64,000 nucleotides of DNA from Solitalea canadensis DSM 3403 (lineage in GTDB: Bacteria > Bacteroidota > Bacteroidia > Sphingobacteriales > Sphingobacteriaceae): positions 1,500,669 through 1,564,668 of the forward strand of contig NC_017770.1 in NCBI RefSeq assembly GCF_000242635.2, read 5' to 3'. Made by a program: the position numbers and the translations under genes. This document shows, one piece after another, positions 10,135-29,563 of this stretch. Position 1 is the stretch's first letter; each line of letters starts with the position of its first letter. The notes under the pieces are model-generated. The model did not search any database, was not told the origin of the DNA, and saw only the letters and a program-made list of their open reading frames with translations.

Positions 10135-10135
10135 G

Positions 10136-10220
10136 TACCTCAGGCGGGAATCGAACCCGCACGGCCTTAACGGCCACAGGATTTTAAGTCCTGCGTGTCT
10201 ACCAGTTCCACCACCAAGGC
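10136..10220 (-). tRNA. tRNA-Leu(UAA), copy 1
   Basis: Reading the minus strand gives an 85-nt class II tRNA. The acceptor stem GCCTTGG pairs with CTGAGGT using G-U pairs. The anticodon stem CAGGA/TCCTG encloses loop CTTAAAA, so the anticodon is TAA. A variable arm (GGCCGTTAAGGCC) and the T-loop GTTCGATTC are present. CCA is not encoded. The sequence is identical to 10469-10553. Confidence 0.96.
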
Positions 10221-10279
10221 ATCGGTGATTTTAAATCATTGCAAAGTTCGATAAAAATATAAAACTAAACAATAAGTAG

Positions 10280-10352
10280 AGCGAAAGACGAGATTCGAAC
10301 TCGCGACCCCAACCTTGGCAAGGTTGTGCTCTACCAACTGAGCTACTTTCGC
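10280..10352 (-). tRNA. tRNA-Gly(GCC), copy 1
   Basis: 73 nt on the minus strand: acceptor GCGAAAG/CTTTCGC, D-arm GCTCAGTTGGTAGAGC, anticodon stem CAACC/GGTTG with loop TTGCCAA (anticodon GCC), T-arm GCGAGTTCGAATCTCGT. No CCA encoded. Three identical copies occur in this array. Confidence 0.97.
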
Positions 10353-10468
10353 ATTAAAGAACTGTCTCTCAAGTTCTTTGTTAATATTTCAAAAATCTCC
10401 TCAAGAGATTAGTACGTTAAACATCCCGATCGTTATCAGGAAGCCTGCATGGCCTTAACATGCATTTG

Positions 10469-10553
10469 TACCTCAGGCGGGAATCGAACCCGCACGGCCT
10501 TAACGGCCACAGGATTTTAAGTCCTGCGTGTCTACCAGTTCCACCACCAAGGC
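10469..10553 (-). tRNA. tRNA-Leu(UAA), copy 2
   Basis: Identical to the tRNA-Leu at 10136-10220, including the terminal GGTA. The spacers on either side differ from those of copy 1. Confidence 0.96.
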
Positions 10554-10570
10554 AGCCTTTGTTAAAAGAG

Positions 10571-10643
10571 AGCGAAAGACGAGATTCGAACTCGCGACCC
10601 CAACCTTGGCAAGGTTGTGCTCTACCAACTGAGCTACTTTCGC
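10571..10643 (-). tRNA. tRNA-Gly(GCC), copy 2
   Basis: Same 73-nt sequence as 10280-10352, ending 17 bp before tRNA-Leu copy 2 on the minus strand. The Gly-Leu pair is repeated, pointing to tandem duplication. Confidence 0.97.
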
Positions 10644-10685
10644 TTTTTTAATTATTAAGACTTTTTAAAGAACATTTTCTTTTGG

Positions 10686-10758
10686 AGCGAAAGACGAGAT
10701 TCGAACTCGCGACCCCAACCTTGGCAAGGTTGTGCTCTACCAACTGAGCTACTTTCGC
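10686..10758 (-). tRNA. tRNA-Gly(GCC), copy 3 (first in the array)
   Basis: Same 73-nt sequence as the other two glycine tRNAs. It is the promoter-proximal member: on the minus strand the order is Gly, Gly, Leu, Gly, Leu, terminator. Confidence 0.97.
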
Positions 10759-20421: not shown

Positions 20422-21249
20422 ATGCTTGCTTTAATTGCTACATTATCTGCTTCCTTTACATCTGCTGATGTAAAAAAGGTTAAGGAAATTCCGTACGTAG
20501 AAACTGACGATTTCGATGATGAAAGGAATCGCTTGGATGTGTATGCTCCGGCGAATGCTCAAAATGCTGATGTGCTGATTTTTGTGCATGGAGGTGAGTG
20601 GGATACGGGGAATAAAAATATCTATGGTCGTTTGGGAATCAATTTTGCCAAAAGGAATATCGTTTTTGTGGCTATCAATTATCGACTTGCACCAACGTTT
20701 AGTTATGAAGACATGGGTCTTGATGTGGCAAGGGCGATAAAATGGGTGTACAATAATATTGAGAATTATGGTGGAAATGCGTCACGTATTTTCTTATCCG
20801 GACACTCAGCTGGGGGCTACCTTTCGGCGTTAACAGGTTTGGATAACAGGTACTTTCAGCAAGCAAAGATCGGAAACCCGCTTAAAGGATTAATTCTTAT
20901 TGATAGTTTCTTGCTCGATTTGTATGAGTTTTTTACCATAAACGGGATTGAGTTTGGTAAAAAGTATTATCCGATTTTTGGTGATCATGAACAAAGCTGG
21001 AAAAAGGCGACACCAATCAATTATCTGAAAAATTGTAAACTTCCGATCCAGGCATTTTTAGGTTCATTAACCTATCCGGGAATTTTAATCGGAACTGAAA
21101 GGTTAAGAAAACAGTGCGAGCTTGAAGGAGTAAAGCTTGAGTTTAATATTATCTGGAAAAAAGCGCATCGGGCAATGATATCACAAATGTTCATGTCAAA
21201 AAATCCAATGTATAATTACATAATTGATTTCATGAAAAGAACTGGCTAA
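20422..21249 (+). CDS. Secreted alpha/beta-hydrolase (esterase/lipase, HSL-like)
   Basis: A 275-aa alpha/beta-hydrolase. The short hydrophobic N-terminus (MLALIATLSASFTSADV) may be a signal peptide. The oxyanion-hole HGG is in LIFVHGGEWDTG (about 53-64), the nucleophile elbow in LSGHSAGGYLSA (about 130-141), and a late His in WKKAHRAMI completes the triad. This matches the carboxylesterase/BD-FAE (kynurenine formamidase-like) group. The start sits 10 bp after word array R3. Its stop codon overlaps the stop codon of the convergent Kir gene by 3 bp. Confidence 0.85.
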   Translation: MLALIATLSASFTSADVKKVKEIPYVETDDFDDERNRLDVYAPANAQNADVLIFVHGGEWDTGNKNIYGRLGINFAKRNIVFVAINYRLAPTFSYEDMGLDVARAIKWVYNNIENYGGNASRIFLSGHSAGGYLSALTGLDNRYFQQAKIGNPLKGLILIDSFLLDLYEFFTINGIEFGKKYYPIFGDHEQSWKKATPINYLKNCKLPIQAFLGSLTYPGILIGTERLRKQCELEGVKLEFNIIWKKAHRAMISQMFMSKNPMYNYIIDFMKRTG

Positions 21250-22226
21250 TGTTCTTCCGATTTTAGAATAACCAATGGCAATGCAACTTCTTCATGGTGA
21301 TTGAGCTTATCCAGTTCGATTAATGCATGTCCGTTTTGTTTCTTTATCATAGGAATAAAACGAGCTCCCCAAACAATATCCTCTGTAATATAAGAATAAC
21401 GGGCATAGACGGTCTGCGAGTAGATTTCATCAAAGGATTTTAGGGATACCAGCAGCTCCATATCGCTCTCTTTTAACATTTGAGCTGTGTAACCATAAAT
21501 TAAGCTGTTTTCATCAAACGGATGAACAACCGTCCAGCTCATTGGGAAGAAATTGACCTTTGTACGCTCTAATGGTAGTTCAAAAAAACGCCTGACCATT
21601 TGCCCATTTTCTTCTACCATTAGCGATAGAATCACCAATAGTTCAGTTTCAATTAGCTGCGTTTTGCGGCCATTCACCATTCTGAACATTAATCCTTGTC
21701 CGCCTTTGTAGGGTGCTACTAATAAATTATCACTAAAAAGAATCTTAGCTGCAGGGCGGGAGAAACGCCCATATAGAAGTCCGGTTGCTAAAGCAAAGCC
21801 TAATAGACCTAATAAACACTCAAAAGCGGCAACACCACTCATCCAATAGTTGCTGGGACTTAAATGACCGTAACCAACTGTTGACAGGGTTTGTGCACTA
21901 AAGAAAAAACAATCAAGGAATTGCTCTAGTAGTTCATGACCACGGGCGCCGTTCAAATATTCGGTGCCAAGCATCAAATAAAGACAGGCAAAGAACGTGT
22001 TTATTAAGATAAACCAAAGGAGAATTACAACGCTAAATTTACTCCAGCTCATCGTAATGAGCGAATTGTAAACATCCTCAAGGGTTAGGCGCTCATGGCC
22101 ACTATGTTTAACGTTAAAGCTGCCATCTGTATTTAAAGAGCGATTATTGCCGGTAAGCTTTTCGCTAAACCCCAAATCGTGTAGCTCGTCTTTCACAAAC
22201 CGTTGCTTTATCCTGGCAAATTTCAT
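21246..22226 (-). CDS. Inward-rectifier type potassium channel (KirBac-like)
   Basis: A 326-aa channel. Two membrane helices (FSVVILLWFILINTFFACLYLML and GVAAFECLLGLLGFALATGLLYGRF) flank a pore loop with the K+ selectivity filter TVGYGH. The cytosolic C-terminal half (PYKGGQGLMFRMVNGRKTQLIETELLVILSL, then LPLERTKVNFFPMSWTVVHPFDENS) is the beta-rich Kir domain. KirBac channels are tetramers gated by cytosolic ligands and lipids. It lies 9 bp after yitT on the same strand, so the two are probably co-transcribed. Confidence 0.92.
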   Translation of the reverse strand: MKFARIKQRFVKDELHDLGFSEKLTGNNRSLNTDGSFNVKHSGHERLTLEDVYNSLITMSWSKFSVVILLWFILINTFFACLYLMLGTEYLNGARGHELLEQFLDCFFFSAQTLSTVGYGHLSPSNYWMSGVAAFECLLGLLGFALATGLLYGRFSRPAAKILFSDNLLVAPYKGGQGLMFRMVNGRKTQLIETELLVILSLMVEENGQMVRRFFELPLERTKVNFFPMSWTVVHPFDENSLIYGYTAQMLKESDMELLVSLKSFDEIYSQTVYARYSYITEDIVWGARFIPMIKKQNGHALIELDKLNHHEEVALPLVILKSEEH

Positions 22227-22235
22227 GATGTCTTG

Positions 22236-23126
22236 TTAATGTAAAGGTCTGCGCTTAATCATACCACCTTTTGTTTCATTGATACTGTGCATGATCACAA
22301 ATGCACGCGGATCAATACGCTCAATTTCAGAATTTAATTTAGAAACTTCCAAACGTGTAATAACGGTGAAAATAATGTCAATTTCTTTGCTTTGGTATAC
22401 ATTTCCTCCAAAACCTCTTTCGCCTTTATAAATGGTTACGCCGCGGCCTAATTTTTGAATGATGGCTTCTTTAATGTCATCACTTTTAATAGAAATGATG
22501 GTTACACCAGTATATTCTTCAATACCCTGAATAATAAAGTCAATCGTTTTTGCTGCCGACAGGTAGGTTAAAATAGAATACATGGCAGTTTCAATACCAA
22601 GTAAAAATGCCGCCAGGGCGAAAATCATGATATTTATGATAAGGATAATATCGCCTATCGTTAATGAAGATTTACGTGTAAGATAGACGGCCATAATTTC
22701 TGTTCCATCAATTACTGCACCACCTCTTACAGCCATTCCAATACCTCCACCCAATAAAAAACCACCAAAAATGGAAATGAGCAGTTTATCGGTAGTAACT
22801 ACCGGAAATTTAAAAGTAGAAAGGATGATAGCTAAACCGGCAATAGCCAATAAGGTCATTAACGCGAATTTTTTTCCAATTTGCTTATAACCCAATATTA
22901 CAAAGGGAATGTTTAAGACAAAGATTAGTAAAGAAATAGGGATCCCGAAAACATGATTAGCAAGCAGCGACAAACCGGTAACACCACCATCAATAAATCC
23001 ATTTGGAATCAGGAAACTTTCAAGCCCGAAAGCGGCAGAGAAAATTCCAAGTATAATAAGGGCAATATTTATAAGGTTTTTTCGGGCACTTAGGCGACGG
23101 ACAGTTTTACTTTTACTTACAGGCAT
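22236..23126 (-). CDS. YitT family membrane protein (DUF161/DUF2179)
   Basis: A 296-aa protein. About five membrane helices form the YitT domain (INIALIILGIFSAAFGLESFLIPNGFIDGGVTG, FGGFLLGGGIGMAVRGGAVIDGTEIMA). The cytosolic DUF2179 domain follows (GVTIISIKSDDIKEAIIQKLGRGVTIYKGERGF, then VITRLEVSKLNSEIERIDPRAFVIM). Function is not established. I chose ATG 23126 (MPVSKSK) over 23204, because a TATTTTTG -7 element (23132-23139) lies 5 nt before it and a terminator-like hairpin lies further upstream. Confidence 0.9.
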   Translation of the reverse strand: MPVSKSKTVRRLSARKNLINIALIILGIFSAAFGLESFLIPNGFIDGGVTGLSLLANHVFGIPISLLIFVLNIPFVILGYKQIGKKFALMTLLAIAGLAIILSTFKFPVVTTDKLLISIFGGFLLGGGIGMAVRGGAVIDGTEIMAVYLTRKSSLTIGDIILIINIMIFALAAFLLGIETAMYSILTYLSAAKTIDFIIQGIEEYTGVTIISIKSDDIKEAIIQKLGRGVTIYKGERGFGGNVYQSKEIDIIFTVITRLEVSKLNSEIERIDPRAFVIMHSINETKGGMIKRRPLH

Positions 23127-23131
23127 ACTAA

Positions 23132-23139
23132 CAAAAATA
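23132..23139 (-). promoter_or_regulatory. TAnnTTTG -7 element of yitT-kir, 5 nt before ATG
   Basis: The minus strand reads TATTTTTG, five bases, then ATG 23126. It predicts a leaderless yitT-kir message and decides the start. Confidence 0.5.
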
Positions 23140-23186
23140 TTGGATTCAAATTGTAAAACATAATTGTGATGAAGAATAAAAGCCCA

Positions 23187-23219
23187 ATCCTGCTGTTTAA
23201 ACAAGACAGGGCCTTAAAA
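23187..23219 (-). terminator. Imperfect hairpin behind the GH144-like gene
   Basis: On the minus strand AAGGCCCTGTCTTGTTT pairs imperfectly with AACAGCAGGATTGGGCTT and is followed by a T-rich run. It lies between the GH144-like stop and the yitT promoter. Confidence 0.5.
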
Positions 23220-25463: not shown

Positions 25464-25495
25464 TTTGCATTTAAAAAATACATTTCTCATTTTTG
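25464..25495 (+). promoter_or_regulatory. Promoter of the trp leader
   Basis: TTTG at 25464-25467 (-33) and CATTTTTG at 25488-25495 (-7, one mismatch from TAnnTTTG) are 20 bp apart, the usual Bacteroidota arrangement. The leader-peptide ATG follows 13 bp later. Confidence 0.6.
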
Positions 25496-25508
25496 GGCAA
25501 ATCGAAAA

Positions 25509-25568
25509 ATGAAACAAACAGTATTAAATAACAATTGGTGGTGGCGTAGCATAACTTGCATACGGTAG
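25509..25568 (+). CDS. trpL: trp operon leader peptide with three consecutive Trp codons
   Basis: A 19-residue ORF, MKQTVLNNNWWWRSITCIR, with TGG TGG TGG at 25536-25544 and TAG at 25566-25568. It lies 41 bp before a strong terminator and 160 bp before trpD. This is the layout of a ribosome-mediated attenuation leader: stalling at the Trp codons reports low charged tRNA-Trp. Three Trp in 19 residues directly ahead of trp genes is very unlikely by chance. The peptide itself should have no other role. Confidence 0.9.
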   Translation: MKQTVLNNNWWWRSITCIR

Positions 25569-25639
25569 CCTCCCTGTTATTTAATTTACCATCAAGATAT
25601 TTTATGAAGGGTTGCCGTATTCCGGCAACCCTTTTTTTT
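25523..25639 (+). promoter_or_regulatory. trp attenuator: mutually exclusive RNA structures
   Basis: Three helices are visible. (a) Protector: ATTAAATAACA (25523-25533) pairs perfectly with TGTTATTTAAT (25575-25585), with the Trp codons in its loop. (b) Antiterminator: 25560-25574 pairs with 25609-25620, 12 bp with two G-U pairs and a 3-nt bulge. (c) Terminator: 25609-25631. A ribosome stalled on the Trp codons would break (a) and leave 25560-25574 free to form (b), so trpDFBA is read. A ribosome reaching the stop codon at 25566 covers that arm, so (c) forms and transcription stops. The pairings are seen; the mechanism follows from known trp and his attenuators. Confidence 0.85.
25609..25639 (+). 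terminator. Attenuator terminator before trpD
   Basis: A 9-bp stem GGGTTGCCG / CGGCAACCC with a 5-nt loop, followed by eight T residues. It lies inside the leader, 89 bp ahead of the trpD start. Confidence 0.93.
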
Positions 25640-25727: not shown

Positions 25728-26729
25728 ATGAAAACTATACTGAAACACTTATTTGAAGGACAAACGTTTTCAAAAGAAGAATCAAAACAGGTGCTTGTTG
25801 ATTTGGCTTTAGGAAAATACAATACTTCGCAAATGGCCGCATTTATGACTGCTTATTGTATGCGAAGCATTACGGTAGACGAGTTAGAAGGTTTCCGCGA
25901 CGGGATGCTTGAATTATGTTTGCAGGTATCGCTTCCATCTGATCAATTGATCGACTTGTGTGGTACAGGTGGCGATGGCAAAGACACTTTTAATATTTCT
26001 ACTTTATCGTCGTTTGTTGTTGCCGGAGCGGGATATAAAGTATCCAAACACGGTAACTACGGGGTGTCATCAACCTGTGGTTCATCTAACGTAATGGAAT
26101 ACTTGGGATATCGTTTTGTAAATGACCAGGATAGTTTAAATCGTTCCTTAGACGAAGCCAATATTTGTTTTCTTCATGCTCCATTATTCCATCCAGCAAT
26201 GAAAACCGTTGCCCCAATCCGTAAAGAATTAGGTGTAAAAACGTTCTTTAATATGTTAGGGCCAATGGTAAATCCGGCTAAACCTAAGTTTCAATCGGTG
26301 GGTGTTTTTAGTCTTGAATTAGCACGTTTATATGCATATCTCTATCAGAAAACCGATAAACATTATATGATCATCCATACGCTATCTGGCTACGATGAGA
26401 TTTCTTTAACAGATCCATTTAAGGTATTTTCCAATAATGGAGAAGCATTGTATAATCCTGAAGTTTTTGGTGGAACATTAAATGCCCAAGATTTGACCGG
26501 AGGTGAAACCATTGCTGAATCGGCAACAATATTTATGAACGTTCTGAATACTGAATGTACACTGGCTCAACAAAAAGCAGTTTTAGCAAATTCTGCAATG
26601 TCGATTAAATGCCTTGAAGAAGGTAAAACACTTGAAGAGTGTTATGCAATTGCAGAAGATTCATTGCTTGGAAAAAAAGCCCTGGACAGTTTTAAAAAAT
26701 TACTGAATAGTCAACCTGTAACGGCTTAA
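25728..26729 (+). CDS. trpD: Anthranilate phosphoribosyltransferase
   Basis: A 333-aa TrpD, which joins anthranilate to PRPP to give phosphoribosylanthranilate. The glycine-rich PRPP site LCGTGGDGKDTFNIST (about 79-94) and KHGNYGVSSTCGSSNVMEYLG (about 104-124) are intact, as is RKELGVKTFFNMLGPMVNPA. It is the first structural gene behind the attenuator. No trpE or trpG precedes it, so anthranilate synthase must be encoded elsewhere. trpF follows immediately. Confidence 0.97.
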   Translation: MKTILKHLFEGQTFSKEESKQVLVDLALGKYNTSQMAAFMTAYCMRSITVDELEGFRDGMLELCLQVSLPSDQLIDLCGTGGDGKDTFNISTLSSFVVAGAGYKVSKHGNYGVSSTCGSSNVMEYLGYRFVNDQDSLNRSLDEANICFLHAPLFHPAMKTVAPIRKELGVKTFFNMLGPMVNPAKPKFQSVGVFSLELARLYAYLYQKTDKHYMIIHTLSGYDEISLTDPFKVFSNNGEALYNPEVFGGTLNAQDLTGGETIAESATIFMNVLNTECTLAQQKAVLANSAMSIKCLEEGKTLEECYAIAEDSLLGKKALDSFKKLLNSQPVTA

Positions 26730-27356
26730 ATGATGAAAATAAAAATATGCGGCATGAAACACCGTGATAATATTATTGAAGTAGCTACACTGCAGCCGGA
26801 TTATTTGGGCTTTATATTTCATCCCGGCTCTCCACGCTTTGTGGATGATCTTTCCGTATTAAAAGCTGTTCCAGCTTCTATAAAGAAGGTGGCCGTATTT
26901 GTAAATGAAAGCCTCGAAAAGGTAATGGATTTGGTGGCTCAATATGATTTTGATGCTGTACAACTTCACGGATCTGAAAAACCGGATTATTGCTCGCAAT
27001 TAAAATCGCCAACAGTGGAAGTTATTAAAGCTTTTGGAGTGGATGAATCATTTGACTTTAATCAGTTAAAAAGATATAAAGATGCATGTGATGCATTCTT
27101 GTTCGATACAAAATCAGCTCAATATGGTGGTACGGGGCTGGCTTTTAATTGGCAATTATTAAAACAATATGACCAGTCAAAGCCGTATTTTTTAAGTGGT
27201 GGCTTAGGAATTGAAAATAGTAACGATATAGCATCATTTAACAGTTCCGGTGGAAATATCGGCACGCTAGATTTTAATAGCAAGTTAGAGGTATCTCCCG
27301 GACTAAAGGATGTGGAGAAAGTAAGAGAAGTAATTAATAAAATGAGAAATCTATAA
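26730..27356 (+). CDS. trpF: Phosphoribosylanthranilate isomerase
   Basis: A 208-aa TIM-barrel isomerase converting phosphoribosylanthranilate to CdRP. The N-terminal KICGMKHRDNI carries the catalytic Cys. LGFIFHPGSPRFV, VQLHGSEKPDYC, FLFDTKSAQYGGTGLAFNW (catalytic Asp) and FLSGGLG are family signatures. The ATG follows the trpD stop codon directly, so the genes are co-transcribed. trpC, usually between trpD and trpF, is absent here; this protein is not a TrpC-TrpF fusion. Confidence 0.96.
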   Translation: MMKIKICGMKHRDNIIEVATLQPDYLGFIFHPGSPRFVDDLSVLKAVPASIKKVAVFVNESLEKVMDLVAQYDFDAVQLHGSEKPDYCSQLKSPTVEVIKAFGVDESFDFNQLKRYKDACDAFLFDTKSAQYGGTGLAFNWQLLKQYDQSKPYFLSGGLGIENSNDIASFNSSGGNIGTLDFNSKLEVSPGLKDVEKVREVINKMRNL

Positions 27357-27398: not shown

Positions 27399-28595
27399 AT
27401 GGGAAATACCAAGATCAATTATTACGTCGACGAACGCGGTTATTACGGTGAATTTGGAGGGGCTTATATTCCGGAAATGTTATACCCTAACGTTGAAGAA
27501 TTACGTCAAAACTACCTAAACATCATCAATGATCCGGATTTTCAAAAAGAATTTAAGGAACTGCTAACTGATTATGTTGGACGCGAAACGCCATTGTTCT
27601 TTGCTAAACGTTTATCAGATCGTTACGGGGCTAATGTTTATTTAAAACGTGAAGACCTTAATCATACGGGTGCTCATAAAGTAAACAATACAATCGGTCA
27701 GATCTTGTTGGCTGAGCGTCTTGGAAAGAAACGTATTATCGCAGAAACTGGTGCAGGCCAGCACGGAGTAGCAACAGCAACTGTTTGTGCCTTACGAGGT
27801 CTGGAATGCGTTGTTTACATGGGAGAGATCGATATAAAACGCCAGGCGCCAAATGTGGCTCGTATGAAAATGCTAGGCGCAACTGTAAAGCCAGCAACTT
27901 CAGGAAGTAAAACGCTAAAAGACGCTACCAATGAGGCTATGCGTGATTGGATCAATAATCCGGTGGATACTCATTATATTATTGGTTCGGTGGTAGGGCC
28001 TCATCCTTATCCGGATATGGTTGCCCGTTTTCAATCGGTAATAAGCGCTGAGGTAAAAAGTCAGTTAAAAGCAAAGATCGGTACAGAATTGCCAGATTAT
28101 GTATTGGCGTGTGTGGGTGGTGGAAGTAATGCCATGGGTGCATTTTATCATTTTTTGAATGATGAATCAGTAAAATTAATTGCTGCCGAAGCCGCAGGAC
28201 ATGGTGTAGATTCCGGAAAGTCTGCTGCAACTACAATTTTAGGGAAAGAAGGTGTGCTTCATGGAAGTCGTTCATTATTGATGCAAACTGAAGACGGTCA
28301 GGTGGTGGAACCTCACTCTATTTCAGCCGGTTTGGATTACCCAGGAATTGGTCCTCAGCACGCTCATTTATTTAAAACTGGCAGAGGAACTTATGTCGCA
28401 GTTACCGATGATGAAGCTATGCAAGCGGGCAAACTGCTAGCTCAGTTGGAAGGAATAATTCCGGCTATAGAATCATCTCATGCATTAGCTTATCTTGAAA
28501 AAATGAACTTCAAAGGAGGCGAAAATGTAGTAGTTTGTTTATCGGGCCGCGGCGACAAAGATTTACAAACCTATATGGATTATTTTGGATTTTAA
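27399..28595 (+). CDS. trpB: Tryptophan synthase beta chain
   Basis: A 398-aa PLP enzyme joining indole and serine. It shows [13 protein letters not shown] near the N-terminus, [20 protein letters not shown] with the PLP Lys (about 91), [14 protein letters not shown], the phosphate-binding [10 protein letters not shown], and the C-terminal [10 protein letters not shown]. Length is normal. It starts 42 bp after trpF. Word array R4, not a simple spacer, separates it from trpA. Confidence 0.98.
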
Positions 28596-28789: not shown

Positions 28790-29563
28790 ATGAACAATCG
28801 ACTGATCGAACTATTCAAACATAAAAATAAAGACCTGCTTTCTGTTTATTTTACAGCAGGTTATCCGCAGTTAAATGATACGCTCACCATTGCTAAAGCG
28901 CTTGAAAAAGCTGGAGCTGATTTTTTGGAGATTGGGTTTCCTTATTCGGATCCGGTAGCTGACGGTCCAACTATTCAGAACAGCAGCCAAAAGGCATTAG
29001 AAAATGGAATGACATTGAAGGTATTGTTCCAACAACTGGAGAATCTACGTAAGGAAATTTCAATACCTATTATTTTAATGGGTTATGTAAATCCTGTTAT
29101 TCAGTATGGTGTTGGACGTTTTTGTGAAGACGCTGCCAAAGTAGGAGTGGATGGAGTTATTGTCCCGGATTTGCCAATGTATGAGTATGAAGAACTGTAC
29201 AGAAATACATTTGAACAAAATAATTTAAGTAATATCTTCCTGATAACCCCACAAAGCTCAGATGAGCGTATTCGTAAAATTGATGAATTAAGCACCGGAT
29301 TTATTTACGCCCTATCGTCTTCATCTACAACAGGTAATAAATTACAAGTTGATGGTTCGCAAATAGATGCGTATTTTGATCGTCTTAAAGGACTTCAGCT
29401 TAAAAATCCTTTAATGATTGGCTTTGGGATTAATGACCGTAAAAGCTTTGAAAAAGCCTGTACATCGGCTAACGGAGCAATTATTGGTAGCGCTTTCGTT
29501 AAAATTTTGGACAACGGGTTCAACGAGCAACAAATCAGTGATTTTGTAAAGGCAATCAAGTAG
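28790..29563 (+). CDS. trpA: Tryptophan synthase alpha chain
   Basis: A 257-aa TIM-barrel subunit that cleaves indole-3-glycerol phosphate and passes indole to TrpB. The catalytic Glu is in ADFLEIGFPYSDPVADGPTIQ (about 44-64). The second acid is in GVIVPDLPMYEYEE; FIYALSSSSTTG and the phosphate loop GFGIND and GAIIGSAFVK are all present. It is separated from trpB by 194 bp filled by array R4. nhaA follows 39 bp later and may receive read-through. Confidence 0.97.
   Translation: MNNRLIELFKHKNKDLLSVYFTAGYPQLNDTLTIAKALEKAGADFLEIGFPYSDPVADGPTIQNSSQKALENGMTLKVLFQQLENLRKEISIPIILMGYVNPVIQYGVGRFCEDAAKVGVDGVIVPDLPMYEYEELYRNTFEQNNLSNIFLITPQSSDERIRKIDELSTGFIYALSSSSTTGNKLQVDGSQIDAYFDRLKGLQLKNPLMIGFGINDRKSFEKACTSANGAIIGSAFVKILDNGFNEQQISDFVKAIK

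Follow-up and report, generated by a model that had tools for sequence, protein, structure and literature searches.

A short open reading frame with three tandem Trp codons lies directly before trpD in Solitalea canadensis DSM 3403, within a stretch of 64,000 nucleotides that was analysed as a whole (the window). The question raised by this locus is whether the frame and the helices after it constitute a transcription attenuator of the classical ribosome-mediated type, through which charged tRNA-Trp would control trpDFBA, as an earlier note had claimed from the sequence alone. We consider this very probable, and comparative evidence lends strong support to the predicted ribosome-mediated attenuation.

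Anatomy and folding of the trpD leader

The coordinates of the leader and the trp genes that follow it are collected in Table 1. The leader peptide of 19 residues contains control codons for the amino acid that the operon produces, which is one feature of the attenuator class. The protector is a perfect stem of 11 contiguous pairs and, by folding, sequesters segment 2 in the untranslated leader (-22.6 kcal/mol). The antiterminator comprises 12 pairs, three of which are G.U. The terminator also comprises 12 pairs (25606-25617 with 25623-25634, one G.U) around a loop of 5 nt, and 88 nt separate its T run from the ATG of trpD. The leader stop codon is a TAG at 25566-25568, and positions 25609-25617 are common to the antiterminator and the terminator, which share segment 3 and are mutually exclusive. 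The peptide with its Trp codons, the protector, the stop codon on the antiterminator arm, the mutual exclusion, the T8 tract and the order of the elements before trpD had all been described in the earlier note and are as stated there; its antiterminator was correct in the 12 pairs and the 3' arm, and its 5' arm (25560-25574) was 3 nt too long. A scan of the whole window identified no other attenuator-like leader.

Table 1. Positions of the promoter elements, leader features and trp genes in the window
Feature	Position	Strand	Basis or remark
Predicted -33 element TTTG, Bacteroidota primary-sigma promoter	25464-25467	+	second TTTG 24 nt on; 20 nt between boxes
Predicted -7 element CATTTTTG	25488-25495	+	7/8 to TANNTTTG, counting N
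trp leader peptide ORF, 19 codons, MKQTVLNNNWWWRSITCIR then stop	25509-25568	+	sequence; conserved in relatives
Stall site, three tandem Trp codons (TGG TGG TGG)	25536-25544	+	sequence; WWW in nearly all orthologous leaders
Protector (1:2) stem, 5' arm	25523-25533	+	folding
Protector stem, 3' arm	25575-25585	+	folding
Protector inner hairpin, directly 3' of the Trp codons	25545-25564	+	25545-25551 with 25557-25564
Antiterminator 5' arm (segment 2), ATACGGTAGCCT, contains the leader stop codon	25560-25571	+	folding, pairing tests
Antiterminator 3' arm (segment 3), GGGTTGCCGTAT, overlaps the terminator 5' arm	25609-25620	+	folding, pairing tests
Intrinsic terminator hairpin (3:4)	25606-25634	+	folding; covariation in relatives
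Terminator T8 tract, overlaps the hairpin by three	25632-25639	+	sequence
trpD, anthranilate phosphoribosyltransferase	25728-26729	+	TIGR01245, 292.5 bits
trpF, phosphoribosylanthranilate isomerase	26730-27356	+	PF00697, 144 bits
trpB	27399-28595	+	TIGR00263, 591 bits
trpA	28790-29563	+	TIGR00262, 232.7 bits

The whole leader folds with a z-score of -4.9, with none of 200 shuffles equally stable, and the antiterminator duplex has a z-score of -4.4. Exposure of the nascent chain behind a ribosome was modelled with computed energies and with footprint sizes taken from general knowledge. When the first 48 nt or so are hidden (free from 25557) and arm 4 has yet to be transcribed, the RNA folds into the antiterminator at -15.0 kcal/mol. 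With the ribosome at the stop codon, hiding the RNA up to 25569, the antiterminator is abolished (-4.9 kcal/mol) and the terminator then forms (-20.5 kcal/mol), so in this folding model translation to the leader end would favour termination, as the note had proposed. The protector and terminator of an untranslated leader are together very stable (-43.1 kcal/mol).

The primary-sigma consensus of Bacteroidota is TTTG/TANNTTTG (PMC6847099), with the -7 box at -12 to -5 (PMC9723704). The boxes in Table 1 place the predicted transcription start near 25500, and the 5' UTR would be only about 9 nt long. A TTTG pair spaced 21-26 nt apart occurs just before the ATG in 41 of 73 leaders, compared to 0.5% in shuffles. 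The sequence before the leader ATG is A-rich and contains no Shine-Dalgarno. A scan for sigma-70 -35/-10 promoters was uninformative, with 34 found versus 40.6 expected.

Genes of the inward-rectifier K+ channel and YitT families are located near the trp operon on the minus strand (21246-23204), and the same families adjoin the trpD attenuator in several relatives, forming a conserved neighbourhood. Some matches to the Rfam family RF01692 appear to precede K+ channel and YitT genes; they are really on the minus strand before trpD, and the genes are divergent neighbours. Further away on the minus strand (10135-10758) are five tRNA genes, two for Leu(TAA) and three for Gly(GCC), which look recently tandem-duplicated.

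Conservation in relatives and a probable second attenuator before trpEGC

Conservation of the Trp run in relatives had been named as a check on the attenuator, and the run is conserved. A TrpD protein search provided 80 named loci, nearly all from Sphingobacteriaceae (Mucilaginibacter, Pedobacter, Sphingobacterium, Olivibacter and others), which were scanned for a short ATG ORF with WW within 400 nt before trpD. Such a leader is present at 72 of the 80 loci. Among the controls, it occurs in 11 of 1600 Markov-shuffled regions (0.7%) and in 5 of 316 stretches nearby, and its WWW form in none of the 1600 shuffled upstream regions. Four of the eight exceptions carry a leader beyond the limits of the scan: that of L043 has a GTG start, those of L091 and L097 lie 518-540 nt upstream of trpD, and the L090 contig begins within the leader with WWW visible. 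L087 has just 183 nt of upstream sequence. Inspection of the upstream sequence revealed no leader before trpD in L095 or in L111 and L113 (Spirosoma, Rudanella), and that of L113 looks like the end of trpG, which fits an unsplit operon. WWW is kept in nearly all orthologous leaders while the residues outside the Trp run vary freely between genera, and the distance from the final Trp codon to the start of the antiterminator arm stays within 11-19 nt in all 73 leaders analysed.

Of the helices, the terminator is conserved best by a wide margin, with 94% of cells paired across 49 sequences and five pairs changed on both sides, and is the sole one returned by RNAalifold. For the antiterminator, a plain MAFFT alignment gives 76% paired and seven pairs that change on both sides (as many in 3 of 500 shuffles). 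Its covariation score of 0.183 is no better than that of the shuffles (0.176, with 91 of 500 as high), so the alignment was not relied on alone. When segments 2 and 3 of each sequence are compared with a shuffled segment 2, the mean z-score is -2.4 and 49 of 73 leaders fall below -2; some relatives, such as Sphingobacterium, have weak antiterminators with z near -1. Swapping partners among 56 distinct leaders changes the mean energy from -12.7 for own arms to -12.0, with 7 of 5000 permutations as good, a comparison in which kinship is uncontrolled. Conservation is lowest for the protector (63% of cells paired overall), which is weakly conserved outside the genus and has a poorly conserved outer stem.

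A second leader (MNKINSNNFAWWRCNN) is encoded in the same genome at 4046476-4046616, followed by trpE-trpG-trpC (8712-11612 of L034, the genomic interval 4038000-4056000). It is composed of a WW leader peptide, an antiterminator and a terminator, and has two Trp codons where the trpD leader has three. Its arms are GACAAG/CTTGTC, compared to GGTAGCC/GGGTTGCC in the trpD leader. Each leader pairs well with itself (-18.2 for trpD, -16.7 for trpE) and poorly crosswise (-5.9 and -8.2), and this comparison of own with cross pairing within one genome is the strongest case for the pairing. A WW leader also precedes trpE in 26 of 30 relatives. With one leader before trpDFBA and another before trpEGC, the split pathway would be under attenuation in both its halves. 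One genus (g3; L144, L146 and L153) carries a looser form of the switch, in which the Trp codons of the trpE leader are separated, for example MIDQNHINSWQKLPKREAGWCF, and a terminator is present. In one genome of this genus, G045, trpD lacks a WWW leader.

A third, subthreshold match in the genome (4761936-4762036; L118 1501-1601; E 8.6e-4) encodes a GTG ORF with WWW (MKIHIWWWSIENRLYKIYILNI) and a terminator and was judged to be chance. No trp gene follows it, its neighbours on both sides are minus-strand genes and no antiterminator is evident by eye; the stretch was not found in three genomes of the same genus.

A covariance model built from these leaders (R1, match threshold E <= 0.01) matches 294 of 301 family genomes; since the model contains the terminator, some of the weaker matches may be terminators only. 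Five of the seven genomes without a match, four of them in one small-genome genus, also have no trpD, so the element appears to accompany the pathway. In the other two, G010 and G045, trpD is present and the leader was not found.

Proposed mechanism and alternative readings

Under ample Trp, the ribosome would translate past the three Trp codons, arrive at the stop codon and cover the antiterminator arm; the 3:4 hairpin would then form and transcription would end at about 25639, giving a predicted RNA of about 140 nt. Under scarce charged tRNA-Trp, the ribosome would stall at the Trp codons, breaking the protector and leaving segment 2 free. Since 25560-25571 could then pair with 25609-25620, the terminator could not form and the operon would be transcribed. 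If the leader is not translated, the protector and terminator would form together, a default off state. We infer both the response to Trp and the efficiency of termination. With trpEGC under a second attenuator of the same design, the split pathway would be regulated as one.

The terminator could also be constitutive, with a Trp-rich ORF before it by chance and the other helices coincidental and non-regulatory. That it is conserved far better than the other helices, and that RNAalifold returns no other, fits this reading, which is nevertheless extremely unlikely given the frequency of WW leaders at the trpD loci (72 of 80) compared to shuffled regions (11 of 1600) and control stretches (5 of 316), the near-constant spacing from Trp codons to antiterminator, the second copy before trpE and the absence of the element together with trpD. 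A sensor other than the translating ribosome, such as a TRAP-like Trp-binding protein, a T-box or a riboswitch, is likewise highly improbable. Such mechanisms control trp genes in Firmicutes; here, profile searches of the genome in which the positive controls matched did not find TRAP (PF02081) or TrpR (PF01371), no T-box or riboswitch family reaches its gathering score within the window, and it is the Trp codons that are conserved, not a ligand-type structure.

The cis attenuator could also release a leader RNA or peptide with activity in trans, a behaviour described for Sinorhizobium rnTrpL/peTrpL (PMC7298713). The predicted terminated RNA has structure and occurs almost throughout the family, and the Sinorhizobium precedent is the one support for this addition. 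Since the peptide varies freely from genus to genus apart from WWW, it shows no sign of a conserved function, and we regard trans action as very unlikely. Conservation, linkage to trp genes, the second attenuator and the failure to find TrpR and TRAP therefore make classical attenuation by far the best explanation.

The kind of element is already catalogued; what is new is its near-universal distribution, the presence of one attenuator on each half of a split pathway and a UTR predicted to be only about 9 nt long. The most interesting remaining points are the two orthogonal attenuators and the predicted near-leaderless start. We tentatively suggest, as a possibility that we rate as rather doubtful, that each half of the pathway has its own attenuator with orthogonal arms and that both operate from near-leaderless leaders free of a Shine-Dalgarno. 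If true, ribosomes in this variant would be loaded by virtue of position at the 5' end, a role usually held by the Shine-Dalgarno. On the main reading, classical trp attenuation is near-universal in a large environmental family of Bacteroidota (Pedobacter, Mucilaginibacter, Sphingobacterium and kin), and the current Rfam cut-off misses most of the copies. The varied natural arms and the two copies in one cell that do not cross-pair are convenient for testing attenuation without a Shine-Dalgarno.

Relation to known trp leaders

The trpL leaders of E. coli and Salmonella feature tandem Trp codons, alternative 1:2, 2:3 and 3:4 helices and a stop codon beside segment 2, all of which have counterparts here. 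They differ from the trpD leader in having two Trp codons, not three; in addition, the window leader lacks a Shine-Dalgarno, its UTR is predicted to be about 9 nt long, it precedes a half operon starting at trpD, and no TrpR was found in the genome. The Rfam family Trp_leader is not among the matches listed in the window. Other Rfam matches over the terminator, including STnc390, BjrC1505 and SSRC38, are below their gathering scores and are generic matches to a hairpin plus T tract.

The closest known family is RF01692 ("Bacteroid-trp, Bacteroidete tryptophan peptide leader RNA"), in Rfam since Weinberg et al. 2010 (PMC2864571). It shares with the window leader the phylum, the core AUGAaaA...UGGuGGUGG, the 1:2 stem and a short tandem-Trp ORF before trp genes. 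The window match (25489-25616) covers all 131 model positions and scores 33.8 bits, below the gathering score of 49 bits (E 0.017; 0.103 in the genome-level search). Four loci of the same taxonomic family (L005-L008) score 49.4-53.7 bits, above the cut-off; L006-L008 carry WWW leaders immediately upstream of TrpD orthologues, and L005 has a WWW leader on a contig that ends before trpD could show. Judged by sequence, the window leader is an RF01692 element homologous to these members and not itself a scored member. It would function as they do, yet Rfam's own score would leave it unannotated. The cut-off is passed by 4 of 120 relatives, compared to the 294 of 301 family genomes matched by R1. 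The RF01692 model stops within the 5' arm of the terminator and so does not cover the antiterminator and terminator in full.

The earlier note had considered trp attenuation little documented in this phylum, a view that the existence of RF01692 and of reports from Flavobacterium contradicts. In Flavobacterium psychrophilum, Bacteroid-trp is named before the trp operon (PMC6414381), and the transcriptome provides strong clues for leader-peptide attenuation before amino-acid operons (PMC9723704). Within the literature searched, these transcriptome clues are the experimental support in the phylum, which is limited to Flavobacterium. By description, the Flavobacterium psychrophilum leaders share the phylum and the regulatory logic of the leader described here and belong to a different lineage.
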